NCBI GenBank assembly: GCA_016871195.1
Contig: VFZN01000005.1
Span: forward strand, 1 to 64,000
Source: Acidobacteriota bacterium
GTDB taxonomy: Bacteria > Acidobacteriota > Vicinamibacteria > Vicinamibacterales > UBA2999
Reading direction: 5' to 3'
DNA: 64,000 nt
Numbering within the stretch: position 1 is the stretch's first letter; every line of letters begins with the position of its first letter. The position numbers were made by a program, and so were the translations under genes. The notes under the pieces are model-generated. The model saw only the letters and a list, made by a program, of their open reading frames with translations, was not told where the DNA came from and did no database searches. This document shows positions 34,095 to 44,632 of the stretch, one piece after another.

Positions 34095-34098
<4 letters not shown>

Positions 34099-35528
34099 AG
34101 CCGCGCATTCTGGTCATCGACGACGAAGAAGGCATCCGCGATACGCTGCGGATGATCCTCAAATACGAAGGCTACGACGTCCTGCAGGCGGGCACGGGCG
34201 AAGATGGCGTGCGGCTCATCGAGCGTGATCCGCCTGATCTGGTGTTCCTCGACATTAAGATGCCGGGCATGGACGGCATCGATGTGCTCCGGCGCATTCA
34301 GCATCTGACCGACACGCTGCCGGTTGTGGTCATCTCGGGTCACGTGGAGCAGGGCGGCGCCTCGTCGTCGGAAGCCGCCGAGGCCATGAAGCTCGGGGCA
34401 CGCGACTTCATCGAGAAGCCACCGTCACAGGACCGGATCCTCGTCACCGTACGCAACGCCCTCGAAGGCGCCGCCCTGCGCCGGGAAAACTCCCAGTATC
34501 GGCACGAAGTCGATCGGAAGTATCAGCTCATCGGGGACGCTCCCGCACTGTCGGGGGTGCGCGAGGCCATTCACCGCGCAGCGCCGACCGGGGCCACGGT
34601 GCTCATCTGGGGCGAGAGCGGCGTGGGCAAGGAACTGGTTGCGCGCGCCATCCATCGCGAAAGCCTTCGCCGCGATGCCACGTTCGTGCAGGTCAACTGC
34701 GCGGCAATTCCCGATGAGCTGATTGAATCAGAACTGTTCGGGCACGAGAAAGGCTCGTTTACCGGGGCGGTCGATCGCCAGATCGGCAAGTTCGAGCAGG
34801 CTGACCGGGGAACCATCTTCCTGGACGAAGTCGGAGACATGAGTCTCAAGACGCAGGCCAAGGTGCTGCGCGTGCTGCAGGAGCAGGAACTCGAGCGTCT
34901 CGGGTCGAATCGGGTCATCCGCGTCGATGTGCGTGTCATCGTCGCCACCAACAAGAACCTCGAAGAGGCGATCAACACCGGCGCGTTCCGCGAAGACCTG
35001 TTCTACCGGCTCAATGTGGTGCCCATCCACGTGCCGCCCCTGCGGGAGCGGCGCGACGACATTCCTGCCCTCGTCCGGCATTTTGCCGACGTCCTGGCCC
35101 GCGAGCACAACTTCCGGCGGAAGGTGTTTACCGCCGCAGCCATGGACAGGCTCAGGCAGCGCCACTGGCGTGGCAACATCCGCGAGCTTCGCAACGCGGT
35201 CGAGCGGTTGCTGATCATGACCCCCGGCGACAGCATCGAAGCGCGCGATGTGCCGGATGAAGGCTTGTCGGCACGCGACGGGGCCGCCGGGGGAGGCGCA
35301 CTGCCGGGCAGTGCCGTGTCCGTGACGATGTCGCTCGAAAGTCAGTGGTTCGACCTGCCGTCGCTCCACGAATTCAAGAGCGTCTCGGAACGGGCCTATC
35401 TTGTGGCGAAACTGCGGCAGCACCACTGGAACATCTCGAAGACCGCCGAGGTGATCGACACACCGCGCAGCAATCTCTACAAGAAGTTGGAGCAGTACGG
35501 CATCAGCGAGGCGCAGGACGGCCAGTAA
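34095..35528 (+). CDS. NtrC/NtrX-type sigma-54 response regulator
   Basis: This 477-residue protein has three parts. A receiver domain has phospho-acceptor D53 ([11 protein letters not shown]). The AAA+ domain has Walker A GESGVGKE (173-180), a GSFTGA sigma-54 contact loop (220-225, where NtrC has GAFTGA) and Walker B GTIFLDEV. The C-terminus is a Fis-type helix-turn-helix ([19 protein letters not shown]). No histidine kinase gene lies beside it. It overlaps htrA by 4 nt and is followed after 4 nt by qhpG, so it could control, or at least be co-transcribed with, the amine dehydrogenase cluster. Confidence 0.92.
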
Positions 35529-35532
35529 CCGT

Positions 35533-36981
35533 ATGACCTCGCCCGACGATGTCGTGATCTTCGGGGGCGGCCCGTCGGCGTGCGCGGCGGCGATGCTGCT
35601 GCGTCGTCTGGGATACGCCGTGGTGATGCTCGCGCGGCCGCACGACCCCGGACGCCCCGACCTGTCTGTGTCACTGACGCCCAGCTGCCGGAAAGTGCTC
35701 GCGGTCGTGGGCCTGCTCGACGCCGTCGTGGCCGCGGAGCTACCCCCCTCGAGGGGAAACACCGTGTGGTGGGGCAACGCGGCCCCCCGCTTTGAGCCGT
35801 TCGGCGGAGAGGAGCAGGGCTGGCAGGTGTCGCTCCGGCAGCTCGAGGCGGTGCTGCACCCGGCACTGCAGGAGGCGGGCGTCCGCCTGAGGCGGCGTGC
35901 GGTCACCTCCGAGGAGGGCATGGCTCTGCCGGCGCGCTTCCGTCTGGACGGCACAGGCCGCACGGGCGTGCTGGCCCGGCGGCTGGCCGGACGTCGCCTG
36001 ACCGCGCCGCACCGGACCGTGGCCCTGTCGGCCGTGTGGGAGGCGGATCGCCCGTGGGCCGTGCCCGACGCCTCGCACACGGTGATTGAAGGCTACCGTG
36101 ACGGGTGGGCCTGGTCGGTGCCGGCCGCCGGTCATCGCCGGGTGGTGGCAGTCATGGTGGATCCCAGCACCTCTGACTTGAGTCGGGGAGACGGGGCGCT
36201 GGCGACCTATCGCCGCGAACTCGACAAGACCCGCGAGTTACGGGGCCTCATCAGCGGGGCACGCGTGGTGCAGGGACCGACCGGCTGGGACGCCTCCGAA
36301 TACTGCTCGTCCCGCTATGCCGGACCCGAGTGGCTGGTCATGGGGGATGCCGCCACGTTTGTCGACCCGCTGTCCTCGTCAGGCGTGAAGAAGGCGCTGA
36401 CCTCGGGATGGCTGGCGGCGGTCACGGTGCACACGTCGCTGCTTGACCCCGGCCGCGCCGCACTGGCGCAGGGCTTCTTCGCCGCCCGCGAGCAGGAGAT
36501 GTTTGACCAGTTGCAGCGGCTGACCCGACAGTTCCTGACGGAAGGGAATCCTGATGCTGGTGGCGCATTCTGGCGCGACCGGAGTACTTCGGATGGTCAC
36601 CGTCCTCCGGATGAGCGGGCCGACGTCGAGGCGGCCTGGCATCGCCTCCGACGCGCAGACCGGCTGGCGCTGGTGCCCGGGGCAATGACCTGGAGCGAGC
36701 GTCCTGCAGTCCGCGGGTCGGAGATTGTGCCCGAGTGGCGCCTCATCTCGGCGGCGCATCCCTCGGGTGTCAGGTATCTCCAGGATGTGGACCTCAGGGG
36801 GCTGGTGGAAATCGCGCCACAGTGCCATGATATACCGGGTTTACACTCGGCTTACTGCAGACAGGCGGGTCCGGTAGGCTGGCCCGCCCTGCTGACGGCG
36901 CTCTCGACTGCCGTCGCTCGGGGATGGCTGAGATGGGCTGACGAACCGGTGGTGAATGTGCATGACACAGCGACTCGGTAG
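35533..36981 (+). CDS. qhpG: Flavin-dependent monooxygenase QhpG, CTQ maturation
   Basis: This 482-residue flavoprotein has an N-terminal FAD-binding motif (IFGGGPSACAAAMLL) and a second FAD segment LVMGDAATFVDPLSSSG, the layout of halogenase-like monooxygenases. In known qhp clusters QhpG dihydroxylates the Trp of the small subunit to start cysteine-tryptophylquinone (CTQ) formation. The assignment rests mainly on its place at the head of an otherwise complete qhp set. By sequence alone it could be any member of the tryptophan-halogenase-like flavoprotein group. It overlaps qhpA by 26 nt. Confidence 0.8.
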   Translation: MTSPDDVVIFGGGPSACAAAMLLRRLGYAVVMLARPHDPGRPDLSVSLTPSCRKVLAVVGLLDAVVAAELPPSRGNTVWWGNAAPRFEPFGGEEQGWQVSLRQLEAVLHPALQEAGVRLRRRAVTSEEGMALPARFRLDGTGRTGVLARRLAGRRLTAPHRTVALSAVWEADRPWAVPDASHTVIEGYRDGWAWSVPAAGHRRVVAVMVDPSTSDLSRGDGALATYRRELDKTRELRGLISGARVVQGPTGWDASEYCSSRYAGPEWLVMGDAATFVDPLSSSGVKKALTSGWLAAVTVHTSLLDPGRAALAQGFFAAREQEMFDQLQRLTRQFLTEGNPDAGGAFWRDRSTSDGHRPPDERADVEAAWHRLRRADRLALVPGAMTWSERPAVRGSEIVPEWRLISAAHPSGVRYLQDVDLRGLVEIAPQCHDIPGLHSAYCRQAGPVGWPALLTALSTAVARGWLRWADEPVVNVHDTATR

Positions 36982-38662
36982 GATCGGGAGTGTTTCCGTG
37001 GCAGTGGTGCTGCTGTTCGGCATGAGTGCCGTGCACGCGCAGTCGCAGGCCGCATCGAATGCCGCGGGCATTCCCATCGACAACACGACGGTGCGGGCCA
37101 CATGCGGGGGCTGTCACAAGCCCGACGACCTGGGACGCATGTCGCGCATTTCCTATCAGCGCAACACGCCCGAGGGCTGGCAGGACACCATCAAGCGCAT
37201 GATGGCGCTGAATGGTCTGAAGATGGATCCGGCGGCCGGTCGCGAAGTGGTGCGGTATCTCTCCAACAATCTGGGGCTGGCCCCCGAAGAAGCTCGGCCG
37301 GTGGCCTACGAGGTCGAGAGGCGGCTGATTGACGAGAAGGATATTGCACCGGAACTGCAGGGCGTCTGCAACGCCTGCCACTCGACCGGGCGTGTGCTGT
37401 CGCAGCGCCGCACGCGCGAAGAGTGGGAACTGCTGATGACCATGCACCGTGGCTGGTATCCGCTGGTCGACCGTCAGGTCTTCCGCCGGATGGGTCCCGC
37501 CCCGAAGGAGCGCAGCGCCGACGGACGTCCTCCCGATACGCGACACCCGCACGAGAAAGCTGTCGACTACCTGGCGAAGGCCTATCCCCTCAACACGGCC
37601 GAGTGGGATCGATGGTCGGCCGCCCGGCGCCCGGCCCGCATCGGGGGCGAATGGACGGTCAGTGCCTACGAACCCGGCAAGGGGCCTGCCTTCGGCCGGC
37701 TGGTGTTGACCCCGGTCGCTGAGAGCGACGACGAGTTCACCTCGGATGTGATGTTCACGTATGCACGCACGGGTGAGCAGGTGCGCCGCACCGGTCGCGT
37801 CACGGTTTACACCGGCTTCCAGTGGCGCGGGCGGTCGAGCGCCGCGACTGGTGGTCCGGGCGCCGACGTGTTTCGTGAAGTGATGTTTGTCGACCGTGAC
37901 CTGCGGCGCATCGAGGGGCGCTGGTTCACGGGCGGGTACGACGAATCCGGTATGGATGTCACGCTGATCAGGGCCGGCGGTGACCTGACGCTGCTGGGGA
38001 CCGATCGGGCGTCGCTCAAGCGTGGGGCCACGGGGGTGACGGTGAAGCTGTTTGCCGTGAACCTGCCCGACGGCGTCCAGGCCCGCGAGATCGATTTCGG
38101 CTCCGGAGTGACGGTGACCCAGGTGTCGTCGAGCGGCGGTGTGGTGACGGCCACCGTCTCCGTCGCGGCGGATGCGGCGGTCGGTCCCCGGGATGTGGCG
38201 GTGCGGGGGAGCGTCAGGCCGGCGGCGGCCGTGGTGTATGACCGCATCGATTCGCTGCGGATCACCCCCGAGTGGAATCTGGCGCGCACCGGTGGGGTCT
38301 CGTTCCCCAAGCGTCTCGCGCAGTTCGAAGCCGTCGCGTACGCCAACGGTCCGGACCGCCGGCCCGGCACCGACGATGACATGCGGATCGATGTGGTCGA
38401 TGCGCAGTGGAGCCTGACCGAGTACACGGCCACGCTCAACGACGACGATGTGAAGTTTGTTGGACGTATCAACGAATCGACCGGGTTGTTTACGCCGAAC
38501 GCCGAGGGCCCCAATCCCCAGCGCAGTGGCGAACGGAACAACATCGGCGATGTCTGGGTGGTGGCGACGGTGTCCGAGGGCGGACAGGTCGTCCGCGGAC
38601 GTGCGCACCTGCTGGTGTCGCCTCCGGTCTACATGCGGTTTGATCCCACGGTGACGCCATGA
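36956..38662 (+). CDS. qhpA: Quinohemoprotein amine dehydrogenase alpha subunit QhpA (diheme)
   Basis: This 568-residue periplasmic subunit has a signal peptide ending near VHAQ (residues 26-29). It carries two c-type heme sites, CGGCH (50-54) and CNACH (138-142), in an N-terminal cytochrome domain. Three beta-rich domains follow, as in the Paracoccus/Pseudomonas alpha subunit. The hemes would take electrons from CTQ and pass them to a soluble cytochrome or cupredoxin. The ATG at 36956 is used; an ATG at 36962 is equally possible and changes only two residues. The 3' end overlaps qhpD by 4 nt. Confidence 0.9.
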   Translation: MCMTQRLGRIGSVSVAVVLLFGMSAVHAQSQAASNAAGIPIDNTTVRATCGGCHKPDDLGRMSRISYQRNTPEGWQDTIKRMMALNGLKMDPAAGREVVRYLSNNLGLAPEEARPVAYEVERRLIDEKDIAPELQGVCNACHSTGRVLSQRRTREEWELLMTMHRGWYPLVDRQVFRRMGPAPKERSADGRPPDTRHPHEKAVDYLAKAYPLNTAEWDRWSAARRPARIGGEWTVSAYEPGKGPAFGRLVLTPVAESDDEFTSDVMFTYARTGEQVRRTGRVTVYTGFQWRGRSSAATGGPGADVFREVMFVDRDLRRIEGRWFTGGYDESGMDVTLIRAGGDLTLLGTDRASLKRGATGVTVKLFAVNLPDGVQAREIDFGSGVTVTQVSSSGGVVTATVSVAADAAVGPRDVAVRGSVRPAAAVVYDRIDSLRITPEWNLARTGGVSFPKRLAQFEAVAYANGPDRRPGTDDDMRIDVVDAQWSLTEYTATLNDDDVKFVGRINESTGLFTPNAEGPNPQRSGERNNIGDVWVVATVSEGGQVVRGRAHLLVSPPVYMRFDPTVTP

Positions 38663-40182
38663 GCACTCCCGCCCTGCCAGAGATCGCCACGTCGGATGCG
38701 CCGCTGCCCGGCCTGCGGGTGACGCCGCAGACGCGGCTTCGGCTGCTGGAGTTCCACCGGTTCGAGGCCGCCGGACAGACGTTCGCCTATCTCGTGCCGT
38801 CTGCCGCCGTGTTTGCGCTGGATGAGTGCGCGCTCGCCCTGGTCGACCTGCTGGGCGAGCAGGGCACGGCGAGCATCGAGGCGCTGGCGGCGGCGGTCGA
38901 TGGGAAATACTCTGTGCAACAGGTGTGGGACACCCTCGGTGACCTGCATCGTGCCCGTGTCGTGACTGAGGCCCTGGCGCCGGCCCCGGCCCCGAAGATT
39001 CTTCCCCTCACGCCCATCCCGCTGCAGACGCTGGTGGTCAACGTGACCAATCAGTGCAATCTGAGCTGCGAATACTGCTACGAATACGGGGAAGACAAGA
39101 TCGTCGACACCGAGAACGGGCAGCAGCCCAAGTTCATGAGCGAAGAGACGGCGCGCGAGGCGGTGGAGTTCGCGTTGCGCGAAAGTGGCAGCAACCCCTC
39201 GGCGCACATCACGTTCTTTGGTGGCGAAACGCTGATGAACTTTCCGGTGCTGCGCAAGACCGTGGCCTATGCCCGGCAGCGCGCCGCCGACGTGGGGAAG
39301 TCAGTCGACTTCAGCCTCACGACCAACGCCACGCTGCTCAAGCCCGATGTCATCGACTTTCTCGCCGACGAACGCATCGGCGTGACGATTTCGATCGACG
39401 GCCCTCAGGAGATTCAGGACAAGTTCCGGGTGTTCAGTAATGGTCAGGGTAGCTACGCGCTGGTGGCGCCGAAGGTCAAGGCGTTGCTCGAGCGGCACCG
39501 CTCGCGTCCGATTGGCGCGCGCGTCACGCTGACGCGCCAGACGCTGGATGTGCTGAAGATCTATCGCCACCTGCACGACGAGATGGGGTTCTGGGAGGTC
39601 GGATTTGCACCGGTCACGACGGCGCCGCAGCGCGGTCATGCCATCTCAGACGCCGGGTTCGACCATCTGCTCGGCCAGTTCCGCACGCTGGCGATGGACT
39701 ATCTGCAGGCGGCGCTGGAGGGACGGCACCACGGATTCTCGAATGTGCGCGAGACCTTGCAGGAACTGCACCAAGGGCATGCGAAGGCCTACCCGTGCGG
39801 TGCCGGTCTGGGCCTCATGGGCGTATCGACCGATGGCCAGGTCTCGCTCTGCCACCGGTTCGCCGGATCAGAGGCACACAAGTTCGGCACGCTGACCGAG
39901 GGCGTCAACCGCGATACGCAGCGCGCGTTCCTCGAATCGCATCACATCAGCCACAAGACCGACTGCGCCACCTGCTGGGCCCGCCCCATCTGCGCCGGTG
40001 GCTGCTATCACGAAGCCCACACGCGCTACGGCACCACGCAGGGGCCCAATCTACACTACTGCGAGTGGATTCGCGGATGGACCCACACCTGTCTCGAGAT
40101 TTACGGTGCGCTGGCCGTGCAGCGTCCCGAGTTCCTGCGCCAGTTTGATGGAGTTGACCATGAAGCATCTGACCGCCATTAA
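38659..40182 (+). CDS. qhpD: Radical SAM/SPASM maturase QhpD
   Basis: This 507-residue enzyme forms thioether bridges between Cys sulfur and Asp/Glu side chains in QhpC. Residues about 25-110 form a PqqD-like leader-binding region. The SAM cluster motif CNLSCEYC has C133, C137 and C140. A SPASM domain (CHRFAG, CATCWARPICAGGCYHEA and a final Cys in HYCEWIRG) holds the auxiliary iron-sulfur clusters. It acts in the cytosol before export of QhpC. The qhpC start lies 23 nt inside the end of this gene, which would help couple their synthesis. Confidence 0.93.
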   Translation: MSTPALPEIATSDAPLPGLRVTPQTRLRLLEFHRFEAAGQTFAYLVPSAAVFALDECALALVDLLGEQGTASIEALAAAVDGKYSVQQVWDTLGDLHRARVVTEALAPAPAPKILPLTPIPLQTLVVNVTNQCNLSCEYCYEYGEDKIVDTENGQQPKFMSEETAREAVEFALRESGSNPSAHITFFGGETLMNFPVLRKTVAYARQRAADVGKSVDFSLTTNATLLKPDVIDFLADERIGVTISIDGPQEIQDKFRVFSNGQGSYALVAPKVKALLERHRSRPIGARVTLTRQTLDVLKIYRHLHDEMGFWEVGFAPVTTAPQRGHAISDAGFDHLLGQFRTLAMDYLQAALEGRHHGFSNVRETLQELHQGHAKAYPCGAGLGLMGVSTDGQVSLCHRFAGSEAHKFGTLTEGVNRDTQRAFLESHHISHKTDCATCWARPICAGGCYHEAHTRYGTTQGPNLHYCEWIRGWTHTCLEIYGALAVQRPEFLRQFDGVDHEASDRH

Positions 40183-40513
40183 CCGGAAGGCCCGTCGAGT
40201 CGAAGAAGTGACCGCTCCGCCCCAGCACGACGTGGTGGCGCTGCAGCAGGGCAGCCAGCCCCCGCAGCAGCCCGAGGGCCCGCATATCCCCGCCGGGTGT
40301 TCAATTGTGTTCTCACCGGGCTGGGAGGCCGACCGCACTGGTGGCACAGCCGGCCTGTGCCAGCCGGTCGAGCGCGACCTGTTCGATTGCCACATGGGCT
40401 GCTACTGGCCGGCGCAGGTGCCCGATCAGCTCAACCACGCTCCCGACTGGACGGCCAAGTGTGCCGCTGCCCAGAAGGATTGGCGCCAGATCGACCTCGT
40501 CTTCCCGGGATAG
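40160..40513 (+). CDS. qhpC: QHNDH gamma subunit precursor QhpC (CTQ-bearing crosslinked peptide)
   Basis: This 117-residue precursor holds the quinone cofactor. From memory of the Pseudomonas gamma subunit (mature numbering), the thioether pairs C7-E16, C27-D33 and C41-D49 map exactly to C47-E56, C67-D73 and C81-D89. The CTQ pair C37-W43 maps to C77-W83, a constant offset of 40, in LCQPVERDLFDCHMGCYWPA. Mature protein should therefore begin near P41, leaving an unusually long leader of about 40 residues. An extra Cys101 has no known partner. It is encoded in a separate frame overlapping the end of qhpD, with GGAG upstream. Confidence 0.93.
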   Translation: MKHLTAINRKARRVEEVTAPPQHDVVALQQGSQPPQQPEGPHIPAGCSIVFSPGWEADRTGGTAGLCQPVERDLFDCHMGCYWPAQVPDQLNHAPDWTAKCAAAQKDWRQIDLVFPG

Positions 40514-40518
40514 GGGCC

Positions 40519-41676
40519 ATGCCGTTGCACGTTGCTCGCCGGCGCATGGTGGCAGCCGGCATGTGGCTCGGCCTCTGGCTGTGCCTGACCGTGGGCGCGC
40601 CCGACGCCGCACAGGCGCAGGCGCGTCGTCCCGAACCGCAGGTGTCGGCCGGTGAAGGGAAGCTGTTCATCGGCACCTACGGCGGGGACATCCGCGTGGT
40701 CGATGAGGCCACCGGGAAGATCGAAGAACGCATTCCCCTGAAGGTGGGACTGGCGCGCTCGCTGCTGCCCTCGGCTGATCGCACGCGCTTCTACGTGCTC
40801 GATTCCACGTACGAGAAGATTGAAGTCATCGACATTGCCACGCGAAAGTCGCTGCGCGATTACTCCCTGCGTCAGGGCAATCGCCGCCTGCGCGTCGTCA
40901 GCATGGTGGCTGACCCAGGCAACCAGTACCTCATCCTGCTGACGCGCCTGGCCACCAAGCTCGTCGACCGATGGGAAATCGGACCGGCGCAGCTGCAGCA
41001 GTTCGATCTGGCGTCGGGCCAAATCACGCGCACGATTCCGTGGCCGCGTGGGGAAGAACGCGAAACCGTCAACCTCCGCTTCTCGCCTGATGGTTCCTCG
41101 CTGTTCATGTTCGGCGATGAGGTCATCATCCTCGAGACGCGCGGCTTCACCGAGGTGGAGTCGTGGCCGCTGTCGACGCCCGCCGAGAGCGGTGTCGGAC
41201 GCATCACGCTGGGACCCGTGCACGACTTCTACGACGACCCCGGAACATTTACGGGCCTCTTCGTGCAGCAGGACCCGGTACAGAAGCGCCGGATTATGGG
41301 CATCGGCCGTGTCAACCTGACGGCACGCAGCGTCGACTTCAAGCCGCTGGGGCCGGCCGAGAACGTGTCGTTCGCCCAGGCGCCCGACCGCAAACGCGCG
41401 TACGGCATCAAGACCGACATCGGTCGCTGGGAGTTCTGGACGTTCGATCTCGAGAAAGGCAGCGTGGTCAGCCGCGGCGAGTTCCAGAGCCGCCCGCGCG
41501 TGGTCCCGCGTGTCAGTTCCAACGGCAAGGTCATCTACGTGTATGTGGCGGGTGACACCATCGATCTGTATGAGGCCGCCACCTACCGCTACCTCCGGAC
41601 CATTCACCTGAACGCCGACCAGACGACCGAGATGTTTGTAGTGCCGCCTGCCGTCCCCGCACGCACGGCGCGCTGA
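40519..41676 (+). CDS. qhpB: Quinohemoprotein amine dehydrogenase beta subunit QhpB
   Basis: This 385-residue periplasmic protein has a signal peptide ending at AQAQ (about residue 35). The rest is a series of beta-propeller blades, for example LFIGTYGGDIRVVDEATG, RTRFYVLDSTYEKIEVIDIAT and IYVYVAGDTIDLYEAAT. In the known structure the seven-bladed beta subunit, with alpha, encloses the small gamma subunit. Start 40519 has AGGGG upstream and lies 5 nt after qhpC. The reading frame extends further up, but that part is the shadow of qhpC. Confidence 0.88.
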   Translation: MPLHVARRRMVAAGMWLGLWLCLTVGAPDAAQAQARRPEPQVSAGEGKLFIGTYGGDIRVVDEATGKIEERIPLKVGLARSLLPSADRTRFYVLDSTYEKIEVIDIATRKSLRDYSLRQGNRRLRVVSMVADPGNQYLILLTRLATKLVDRWEIGPAQLQQFDLASGQITRTIPWPRGEERETVNLRFSPDGSSLFMFGDEVIILETRGFTEVESWPLSTPAESGVGRITLGPVHDFYDDPGTFTGLFVQQDPVQKRRIMGIGRVNLTARSVDFKPLGPAENVSFAQAPDRKRAYGIKTDIGRWEFWTFDLEKGSVVSRGEFQSRPRVVPRVSSNGKVIYVYVAGDTIDLYEAATYRYLRTIHLNADQTTEMFVVPPAVPARTAR

Positions 41677-41685
41677 CACCCGGAA

Positions 41686-43467
41686 ATGATGCGCCCGACA
41701 CAGGCTGCCGACCTGCGTCGGGCGTTTGCCTTCGTTCGCCCTCACGCCTCGCGCCTGATTCTGGTGCTCGGCATCAGCCTGATCAGCACGCTGCTGTCTC
41801 TGGCCACGCCGCTTCTGACGCGTGACCTCATCGATCGGGCCCTGCTCGGTCGCGATGCCGAGGCCCTGCGACGCATCGTGCTGCTGTTCGCGGGTCTGGG
41901 ACTGGCGAGCTATGGCCTGACGGTCGTCAGTGGCCTGCGCTACACACGGGTGTCAGCAGAGATCCTCTTCGAGATGCGGGCCGCGCTGTACGCGCACCTC
42001 CAGCGGCAGTCACCGCGGTTCTATGCGCGCACGCGCCTCGGCGACATCGTCGCGCGCATCAACAGCGATATCGGGGAAATCCAGCGCATCGTGGCGGAAG
42101 TCGCGCTCGCGTGGGTCGGCAACGTGCTGTTCCTGGCAGGTTGCGTGGCGATGCTGGTCTGGCTCGATTGGCGTCTGGCCCTGCTGAGTGCGACGGTGCT
42201 GCCGCCGAGCCTCCTGGCACTCGTGCAGTATCGCAGACGCATGGAATCGCGAGTGGCGGACGTGCGGCAGCGCAGTGCGGACATCGGCAGCTTCCTGATT
42301 GAAACCCTGCAGGCACACACGCTGGTGGTCGCGTCCAATGCGCAGGCGCGCGAGCTGTCACGATTCCGTCAGCTGAACGATCGGTTCATTGCCGCACTGA
42401 TGCGGCTGCAACGCATCAGCTACGGGGCGGGAGGCATTCCAGGCCTGCTGGTGTCGCTGGGGGCGTCCGCCGTGTTTCTCTACGGCGGACTGCGGGTCGT
42501 CGAGGGCTCGCTGACGCTGGGCACCTTCGGCGCATTCATGGCCTATCAGATGCGTCTCATGGCTCCCGTGCAGGCGCTCATGGGGCTCTACACGGCGCTG
42601 GCGACCGCGCGCGTCTCGTGGGGACGCGTGACACAACTGCTCGATGCCCCCATCGAGGTCGTAGAGACCGACACGCCGGTGACGCTCGGGCCGACCGTGC
42701 GCGGCGACCTTGCCGTCTCACATCTGTCGATCAGAACCGAACGCGACGTGCAGGTGCTCGATGATGTGTCCTGGACACTGCCGGCGGGGCAATCGCTGGC
42801 GGTGGTCGGCGCGAGCGGCAGCGGCAAGTCGACGATTGCGGCCGTGCTGCTCCGGCTCATCGACCCTGACGCTGGCGTCGTGACCCTCGACGATGTGGAT
42901 GTGCGCCACCTGCGTCTGGCCGACGTGCGCCGGCACATCCGGTTGGTCGAGCAGGAGCCCACGCTGCTGCACGCGACGCTGCGCGAAAATCTCTGCTACG
43001 GACTGGAGCGCGGTCAGCAGGCCAACGCGGCGCACGCCGATACAGACGATGAGTTGTGGGCCGCAGTCGACGCCGCGGGCCTGCGCGAGTTTGTGGCGCG
43101 CCTGCCTGAGGGGTTCGACACGATGGTGGGCGAGCGAGGATTGCAACTGTCGGCGGGTGAGCGCCAGCGCGTGGCACTGGCGCGGGCATTTCTGGCGCGC
43201 CCGGCGGTGCTGGTGCTCGACGAGCCCACAGCAGCCCTGGACCCGGACGCTGAGCGGGCAGTCGTGGCCGGCTATCGCCGTGTGATGCAGGGACGCACCA
43301 CCGTGGTGATTTCGCATCGCCGTGATGTGGCGATGGCGGCTGATCTGGTGGTGCTGCTGCACGAGGGCCGTGTCAGCGAGGCAGGGCCCCCCGAGGACCT
43401 GCTGCGACGCGGAGGGCGGTTTGCCGCCATGTTCCAGGCCGCAGCCCCTGCGGGTGAGCTGCGGTGA
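41686..43467 (+). CDS. qhpF: ABC exporter QhpF (peptide/QhpC exporter)
   Basis: This 593-residue half-transporter has six membrane helices followed by an ATPase. The ATPase carries Walker A GASGSGKST, signature LSAGERQRV and Walker B VLVLDEPTAALD. Homologues in qhp clusters carry the crosslinked QhpC across the inner membrane, since QhpC has no Sec signal. No peptidase C39 domain is present, which agrees with a separate protease, qhpE. qhpE overlaps its end by 4 nt. Confidence 0.87.
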   Translation: MMRPTQAADLRRAFAFVRPHASRLILVLGISLISTLLSLATPLLTRDLIDRALLGRDAEALRRIVLLFAGLGLASYGLTVVSGLRYTRVSAEILFEMRAALYAHLQRQSPRFYARTRLGDIVARINSDIGEIQRIVAEVALAWVGNVLFLAGCVAMLVWLDWRLALLSATVLPPSLLALVQYRRRMESRVADVRQRSADIGSFLIETLQAHTLVVASNAQARELSRFRQLNDRFIAALMRLQRISYGAGGIPGLLVSLGASAVFLYGGLRVVEGSLTLGTFGAFMAYQMRLMAPVQALMGLYTALATARVSWGRVTQLLDAPIEVVETDTPVTLGPTVRGDLAVSHLSIRTERDVQVLDDVSWTLPAGQSLAVVGASGSGKSTIAAVLLRLIDPDAGVVTLDDVDVRHLRLADVRRHIRLVEQEPTLLHATLRENLCYGLERGQQANAAHADTDDELWAAVDAAGLREFVARLPEGFDTMVGERGLQLSAGERQRVALARAFLARPAVLVLDEPTAALDPDAERAVVAGYRRVMQGRTTVVISHRRDVAMAADLVVLLHEGRVSEAGPPEDLLRRGGRFAAMFQAAAPAGELR

Positions 43468-44150
43468 GGCGCTGGCCTGCTGGTCAGTGGCATGCCGAGG
43501 CCCTTCGCCCGCTGACGGGGCGGGGCGTCAGGGTCGTTGTGATCGACAGCGGGGTGCATGTGGCGCATCCGCACATCGCACACTTGGTGACGCGTGGTGT
43601 TCACATCGGTTCCGACGGGGCCGCCGGCGATGACTGGCGTGACCGACTGGGGCATGGCACGGCCGTCGCGGCGGCCATTCTCGAGAAGGCCCCGGCGGCG
43701 GAGGTACTGGCGGTCAGGGTGTTTGATCGTCAGCTGACCACCACAGTCGATGCCCTCGCGGCGGGCATCGACTGGGCCATCCGCGAGCGTGCGGACCTGA
43801 TCAACCTGAGCCTAGGCACTGACCGGCCCGAGCATGGCCCCAAGCTGTCGTCGGCCGTCACGGCGGCGGTTGCTTCGGGGGCGACGATAGTGGCAGCCGG
43901 GCACGATGGCGTGCACGCCTGGCTGCCGGGGACGCTGCCCGGGGCGGTGGGAGTGGCACTCGACGGGGCCCTGCCACGACATGAGGTGTCGATCACGGCC
44001 GAGGGGCTCGTGCGGGCGGCGGGTTACCCGCGCCCGATTCCGGGGGTGCCAGTCGAGCAGAATCTGCGGGGGCTGAGCTTCGCTGTGGCCAACGCGACCG
44101 GTGTGCTGGCGCTTCTGTGCGAACGGCTGCGCGATGCCCTGTTACACTGA
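43464..44150 (+). CDS. qhpE: Subtilisin-like leader protease QhpE
   Basis: This short 228-residue S8 peptidase has no signal peptide, so it likely acts in the cytosol on the leader of QhpC. The triad is visible as VIDSGVHV (Asp), GHGTAVAA (His) and GLSFAVANATG (Ser). The oxyanion-hole Asn seen in subtilisins (AAGNxG) is replaced: the sequence reads AAGHDG. Start is GTG inside the qhpF end. The RNase P RNA gene begins directly after its stop, so qhpE closes the cluster. Confidence 0.83.
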   Translation: MRRWPAGQWHAEALRPLTGRGVRVVVIDSGVHVAHPHIAHLVTRGVHIGSDGAAGDDWRDRLGHGTAVAAAILEKAPAAEVLAVRVFDRQLTTTVDALAAGIDWAIRERADLINLSLGTDRPEHGPKLSSAVTAAVASGATIVAAGHDGVHAWLPGTLPGAVGVALDGALPRHEVSITAEGLVRAAGYPRPIPGVPVEQNLRGLSFAVANATGVLALLCERLRDALLH

Positions 44151-44154
44151 AGCC

Positions 44155-44599
44155 GTCTCAGCGGGCCAGACGGTCGCTGCCGGCAACGGGCCGGTGGGGC
44201 GATGCTTTCGGGTGTCGTTCCTGCCGGAACTCGCGTCGGGAGAGGAAAGTCCGAACTCCAGCAGGACAGTGCGCCGGGTAACGCCCGGGCGGGGCAACCC
44301 GACGGAACAGTGGCACAGAAAAGATACCGCCGTGGTCGGTTTGCCGGCTGCGGTAAGGGTGAAATGGTGCGGTAAGAGCGCACCGCGCCTCTGGTAACAG
44401 AGGTGGCAGGCAAAACCCCGCACGGAGCAAGACCAAATAGGGAAGCGCGCGGCCTTCGGGTCGTACGGGTGGTCCATCCGAGCTTCCGGGTCGGTCGCTC
44501 GATCCCGTCAGCAATGCCGGGACTAGAGGAATGACCGTCATCGGCGTCGCCTTTACGGGTGGGGTCGGGACAGAATTCGGCTTATCGGTCCGCTGAGGC
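44155..44599 (+). ncRNA. rnpB: RNase P RNA, bacterial type A
   Basis: The catalytic RNA that trims tRNA 5' ends is recognised from several conserved pieces in the right order. P1 is CTCAGCGGGCC (44157-44167) paired with GGTCCGCTGAG (44587-44597). The core segment AGAGGAAAGTCCGA starts at 44241. It is followed by ACAGAAAAGATACCGCC, AAGGGTGAAATGGTGCGGTAA and GGCAGGCAAAACCCCG (about 44405), then GACCAAATAGG and the P4 partner ACAGAATTCGGCTTAT (44570-44585). Ends are estimated from P1. Open frames over this region are artefacts. Confidence 0.95.
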
Positions 44600-44632
44600 A
44601 TTGTTGCAGGGACAACAGGAATCGAGGCAGGC

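Follow-up and report, generated by a model that had tools for sequence, protein, structure and literature searches.

A qhp operon of an acidobacterium and the five-cysteine branch of its gamma subunit

Does a run of seven genes on an acidobacterial contig encode a complete quinohemoprotein amine dehydrogenase (QHNDH), and how does its product relate to the enzymes that have been crystallised? The genes lie at 35533-44150 of the window, by which we mean the whole stretch of 64,000 nt that was analysed (positions 1 to 64,000 of contig VFZN01000005.1, assembly GCA_016871195.1, Acidobacteriota bacterium). It is highly probable that they form a complete, vertically inherited acidobacterial qhp operon for a periplasmic QHNDH, and that its gamma subunit, QhpC, belongs to a branch with five cysteines that lies deeper than the four-cysteine clade.

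Layout of the operon and assignment of its products

Seven contiguous open reading frames (ORFs) were found on the + strand in the order qhpG-A-D-C-B-F-E, with an intergenic spacing of -26 to +9 bases. The ORF coordinates bear out the gene order given in the initial annotation. The ends overlap, as it had also stated, at G/A, A/D, D/C and F/E, but C/B and B/F are separated by gaps of 5 and 9 bases, respectively. The genes are as follows.

35533..36981, + strand: qhpG, flavin adenine dinucleotide (FAD)-dependent peptidyl-Trp dihydroxylase by best NCBIfam match (482 aa)
36956..38662, + strand: qhpA, alpha subunit with a signal-like N-terminus, two CxxCH haem motifs and domains I-IV (568 aa)
38659..40182, + strand: qhpD, radical S-adenosylmethionine (SAM)/SPASM thioether maturase with CX3CX2C and SPASM cysteines
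40160..40513, + strand: qhpC, gamma subunit precursor with a leader of ~27 residues and a Pro/Gln-rich mature N-terminal extension (117 aa)
40519..41676, + strand: qhpB, beta subunit, a divergent beta-propeller with a signal-like N-terminus (385 aa)
41686..43467, + strand: qhpF, ATP-binding cassette (ABC) exporter with membrane and ATPase domains (593 aa)
43464..44150, + strand: qhpE, subtilisin-like leader protease with a GTG start and the Asp/His/Ser motifs (228 aa)

Comparison with NCBIfam models gave bit scores above the cut-off for QH_alpha (469; cut-off 274), QhpD (588; cut-off 453) and QH_gamma (125; cut-off 50), and the gamma family was absent from 14 of 14 control genomes. The qhp family matches are far beyond chance, and QhpC and QhpD matched best the families expected of them rather than unrelated ones. 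QhpA carries both c-type haem motifs and the QHNDH alpha domains I-IV; two matches to cytochrome c assembly in the same genome support the assignment, since the haems of QhpA would need such genes. All ten cluster cysteines of QhpD are present, consisting of CX3CX2C at Cys133/137/140 and seven invariant SPASM cysteines. For QhpB, a sequence search of the PDB gave no match. A fold search with its AlphaFold model (predicted local distance difference test score [pLDDT] 89) returned as the top two PDB chains 1jju_B and 1jmx_B, both QHNDH beta subunits, at 16-18% identity and with better E-values than other beta-propellers. As judged from its predicted fold, the divergent QhpB is the propeller-type beta subunit of a QHNDH. 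Families, residues and the QhpB fold agree with the initial claim of a complete seven-gene set with structural, maturation and export functions.

The window system shares with the QHNDH of Pseudomonas putida (PDB 1JMX/1JMZ; QhpG 7CTQ) the eight residues of the thioethers and of cysteine tryptophylquinone (CTQ), the two c-haem motifs, the QhpB fold, the tryptophans of the QhpG catalytic pocket and all maturation functions but QhpR. The QhpB proteins are 18% identical, and a cysteine pair conserved in proteobacterial QhpB is lacking in the window as in the other five-cysteine lineages. The enzyme of Paracoccus denitrificans (PDB 1JJU/1PBY) has the thioether and CTQ residues, c-haems, maturation functions, QhpB fold and QhpG pocket tryptophans in common with the window as well. 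We infer the following biochemical steps and amine substrate from analogy with the known enzymes. QhpD would act in the cytoplasm, crosslinking cysteines of the QhpC precursor to Asp or Glu. QhpG would dihydroxylate Trp43, QhpE would cut the QhpC leader and QhpF would export the gamma subunit. In the periplasm, gamma would join QhpA with its two haems and the QhpB propeller, with CTQ being completed there, and the assembled QHNDH would oxidise primary amines and pass the electrons to the respiratory chain.

The notion that QhpC and QhpD are instead a ranthipeptide-type pair, that is, a system for a ribosomally synthesized and post-translationally modified peptide unrelated to amine oxidation, has next to no probability. 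QhpD also scores to the PapB and SCIFF maturase models, and PapB, the freyrasin maturase, is likewise a radical SAM/SPASM enzyme that makes Cys-to-Asp thioethers at the beta-carbon with an acceptor that must be Asp or Glu (PMC8172795). The top score of QhpD, above the cut-off, was however to the QHNDH maturase model, and the presence of QhpA, QhpB, QhpG, QhpF and QhpE in one operon already refutes the notion. PapB acts on a short peptide with six Cys-X3-Asp motifs and has no amine dehydrogenase subunits beside it, whereas the donor-acceptor distances in QhpC are 9, 6 and 8 residues, with no PapB-type Cys-X3-Asp repeats.

The fifth cysteine of the gamma subunit

QhpC aligns gap-free to the solved gamma subunits from residue 45, and it carries in register the crosslink residues Cys7-Glu16, Cys27-Asp33 and Cys41-Asp49 as well as the CTQ pair Cys37-Trp43. 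Cleavage of QhpC has been reported to follow a 28-residue leader (PMC7876137), and on the Paracoccus sequence this site falls inside EVVA/MN. Because the window QhpC has the matching DVVA/LQ at residue 27, we infer cleavage at this site; the leader would then have the usual length, with the additional residues belonging to the mature N-terminus, which is longer than that of P. putida. The window protein also has one cysteine more than the solved gamma subunits, at mature position 61, and is thus not of the four-cysteine type, which has no cysteine there. Positions 61 and 72 are Ala and Gly in P. putida and Ala and Gln in P. denitrificans, as against Cys and Asp in the window. The initial annotation overlooked this fifth cysteine, along with the likely ancestral position of its branch and the altered docking residues of QhpG. 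Three codons are of concern here.

40460..40462, + strand: fifth cysteine of QhpC, precursor Cys101 (mature Cys61)
40478..40480, + strand: Asp107 (mature Asp67), a possible acceptor for a fourth thioether
40493..40495, + strand: Asp112 (mature Asp72), the favoured candidate of the two, invariant in no cores but those with Cys61

Residues were compared across 138 distinct gamma cores. Glu16, Asp33, Trp43 and Asp49 were conserved in 138/138. Cys61 occurred in 107/138, a ratio of five-cysteine to four-cysteine forms that is no census, as the ranking of the named loci followed their similarity to a five-cysteine query; searches with the family PF08992 carry no such bias. Asp67 and Asp72 were both present in 107/107 of the cores with Cys61. 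In the four-cysteine cores (n=31), position 61 was Ala, Val or Thr, Asp67 was found in 28/31 (Asn in 3), and Asp72 in only 15/31 (Gly in 12, Gln in 4). The five-cysteine cores came from Acidobacteriota, Planctomycetota and one Novosphingobium plasmid, and the four-cysteine cores were all proteobacterial, Paracoccus and Pseudomonas included.

Because QhpD bridges cysteine to Asp or Glu, and the related PapB needs a carboxylate acceptor, we tentatively propose, at somewhat less than even odds, that, in the five-cysteine branch, QhpD also joins Cys61 to Asp72 (or Asp67; spacings of 11 and 6 residues) in a fourth thioether, which would pin the C-terminal segment of gamma. The five-cysteine form would be ancestral, and the bridge would have been lost in the crystallised proteobacterial enzymes, whose QhpG docking differs in being arginine-based. 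The alternative, to which we give an even chance, is that QhpD makes the three known Cys-Asp/Glu bonds only and that Cys61 is a free thiol or serves another use, such as a gamma-gamma disulfide or contact with a metal or a redox partner. Cys61 does not adjoin the cofactor motifs, its absence does not keep the crystallised enzymes from working, and the near invariance of Asp67 with or without Cys61 indicates that Asp67 has another role; the AlphaFold model of QhpC, at a pLDDT of 55, is not reliable for the Cys61 segment. This alternative, on the other hand, fits less well with the invariance of Cys61 in 107 distinct cores over deep branches, with its presence at the time QhpD acts, with the use of all other gamma cysteines as thioether donors, with the relaxation of Asp72 only in the clade without Cys61, and with the lack of a conserved cysteine partner in QhpA or QhpB. 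If the fourth thioether is real, evolution has altered the number of crosslinks made by a radical SAM modifier, the change is legible in the sequences and can be exchanged by experiment, and QhpG residues called essential would be clade-specific.

Two narrower possibilities fared less well. A disulfide between Cys61 and QhpA or QhpB was rejected, as neither protein offers a conserved partner: in the five-cysteine organisms QhpA has no conserved cysteine outside the haem motifs, and QhpB has a cysteine at one column in just 35/111 rows, the window not among them. Asp67 as the sole acceptor, with C-X5-D spacing, was weakened by its occurrence in 28/31 four-cysteine cores, and Asp72 fits better. 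Two further observations concern cysteines in related proteins. A cysteine of the window's QhpD beyond the SPASM set, Cys478, occurs in 86/102 five-cysteine rows and 0/24 four-cysteine rows. In a planctomycete genome of 12.3 Mb, a gamma-like protein of very divergent sequence (L226:1486-2043) has extra cysteines, some of them near 61 and near 72. This would fit a short distance in space between the two positions, although it is a single sequence with an indel.

Inheritance of the operon and proposed docking by QhpG

In the QhpD trees, the window sequence nests with its own genus, family and class; its flanking genes are common to the genus-mates, where the operon lies in the same neighbourhood. 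This nesting and the shared flanks support vertical inheritance and disfavour recent transfer into this genome. Agreement between phylogenies of the qhp proteins, a kind of check on co-inheritance that had been suggested, was also found and supports co-inheritance: FastTree patristic distances over 89 loci correlated at r 0.95 among QhpA, QhpD and QhpB, and at 0.86-0.88 for QhpF. Recent acquisition of the cluster from Proteobacteria is thus very improbable. The qhp genes are best known from that group and can be plasmid-borne, but the proteobacterial clade is distant from the window sequence and looks derived, and Novosphingobium sp. RL4 appears instead to be a recipient of the acidobacterial version. 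The plasmid of this strain (L099) has an unannotated qhp cluster with a five-cysteine gamma. The QhpD trees place this cluster among Terriglobia, and transfer from Acidobacteriota is likely.

The four-cysteine rows occupied one side of a single branch (support 100) in a 115-row QhpD tree. When the tree was rooted with a related radical SAM outgroup, itself distant, the four-cysteine clade was nested (100/100), with the five-cysteine locus L106 as its sister. The approximately unbiased (AU) test rejected five-cysteine monophyly (p 0.0003), the group for this test having been picked after the first tree. The nested placement is driven by L106, and a second genome of its genus has the same gamma (L238). 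These trees suggest that the five-cysteine state is likely ancestral and the four-cysteine textbook form derived. The enzymes from which the crosslinks and QhpG docking were worked out belong to one proteobacterial clade, which looks derived.

QhpG was compared in the numbering of the 7CTQ paper, from which the printed 7CTQ chain numbers are shifted by two. The window protein keeps Trp74, Trp181, Trp183, Asp260, Pro267 and Leu268, which are kept almost throughout the QhpG compared. It has Val at 42, Ser at 47, Asn at 70 and Gln at 314, in place of the Glu42, Arg47, Arg70 and Arg314 of P. putida. Mutants of P. putida QhpG at Glu42, Trp183, Arg47, Arg70 or Arg314 had almost no activity and/or bound crosslinked QhpC with lower affinity; docking of the acidic gamma subunit was the role suggested for the arginines (PMC7876137). 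Arg47 and Arg70 were present in all four-cysteine QhpG examined, and Arg314 in 17/18. In five-cysteine QhpG, position 47 was Ser in 45/46 filled rows, position 70 was Asn or His, and Arg was not common at 314. Taken as a whole, this pattern suggests that the chemistry of QhpG is probably shared between the two branches and its docking different, with Glu42 and the three arginines best seen as a feature of the four-cysteine clade and not as defining the family. No description of a five-cysteine branch with a changed QhpG surface was found in the literature covered, a scope outside which the original QhpD and QhpE reports fall.

Several observations weigh against the interpretation of the locus as a complete qhp operon of a deeper, five-cysteine branch. 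Three products matched the expected family best yet fell below its cut-off, namely QhpG (206; cut-off 240), QhpE (152; cut-off 165) and QhpB (QH_beta, 55; cut-off 223). QhpG lacks all four of the residues needed in P. putida. No AraC-type qhpR was seen adjoining the operon, a statement limited to the neighbourhood, the rest of the genome not having been searched; this regulator is no part of the enzyme or its maturation. The covariation of Cys61 with Asp is one evolutionary event and not statistically independent, since the Cys61 split corresponds to one branch of the tree. The QhpG changes also raise the idea of a decaying operon, unable to build CTQ for want of Glu42 (here Val) and the arginines, as P. 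putida QhpG is inactivated by point mutations at these positions (PMC7876137). We consider decay improbable. None of the seven frames is broken, five other relatives share Val42 and one has Asn42, and Ser47 and Asn/His70 occur in practically all five-cysteine QhpG, so that a docking surface built on arginines looks like a trait of the four-cysteine clade.

Host range, gene neighbourhood and related loci

The operon adds one more member to a type already known, in an ordinary host and with an ordinary gene order. The initial annotation was right as to identity and a periplasmic amine-oxidising role, but not in presenting host range and order as new. It took such clusters to be described mainly in Paracoccus and Pseudomonas, whereas a 2021 paper had already reported it from >1300 species, among which the arrangement, order and strands vary (PMC7876137), and hosts are both Gram-negative and Gram-positive according to a review (PMC8172795). 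The order G-A-D-C-B-F-E is usual in the class of the window. It also occurs on a Leisingera caerulea plasmid (L103; E annotated as hypothetical), which differs in having a four-cysteine gamma and, after the cluster, a helix-turn-helix regulator and an aldehyde dehydrogenase. On a Paracoccus plasmid, qhpG is on the opposite strand and qhpE precedes qhpF.

The gamma family was present in 76/193 genomes (39%) and 34/104 genera of the window's class. With seed genomes counted, it was found in 15/294 genomes in the phylum of a planctomycete record and in 7/399 in the phylum of an Amphritea record. The gene is far commoner in the window's class than in a Pseudomonadota sample (~1-2%), and acidobacterial amine oxidation deserves attention.

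Several arrangements depart from the usual one. Planctomycete clusters L169, L177, L178 and L193 have the order A-D-C-B-E; qhpF was not detected in the stretches fetched, and qhpG only in L178. The qhpC-qhpB pair is repeated in tandem in L060, and two clusters lie in one region in L054 and L133. Two gamma types occur in one genome in G510 (L106, L113) and also in G1246. Clusters in family f18 that seemed to lack qhpG were rejected as such, for in G019 and G022 the gene sits on the same contig at a distance of 17-19 kb. Acidobacterial-type qhp also occurs under the titles Bordetella parapertussis and Bifidobacterium breve (both metagenome-assembled genomes; L142/L194), and these titles look wrong.

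Immediately upstream of the operon is one further gene.

34095..35528, + strand: sigma-54 (NtrC-type) response regulator, ending 4 bases before qhpG

This gene is possibly co-transcribed with the qhp operon. Downstream, RNase P RNA (44158-44600) begins 7 bases past qhpE, whose final codons (CTGTTACACTGA) double as a motif also found 5' of rnpB in the genus-mate L046, outside any qhp gene. Since qhp lies downstream of rnpB in L044, L046 and L050, the operon of the window seems to have been relocated to a place directly between ntrC and rnpB.

Pairs of a QhpD-like radical SAM protein and a QhpG-like monooxygenase/halogenase were also seen on plasmids (L105:5740-8503, L234:1037-7474 and L237:892-7633; also L235 and L236). 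Their hosts are Mesorhizobium, Bradyrhizobium and Mycetohabitans, and the pairs mostly stand beside ferritin-like proteins, without QHNDH subunits.

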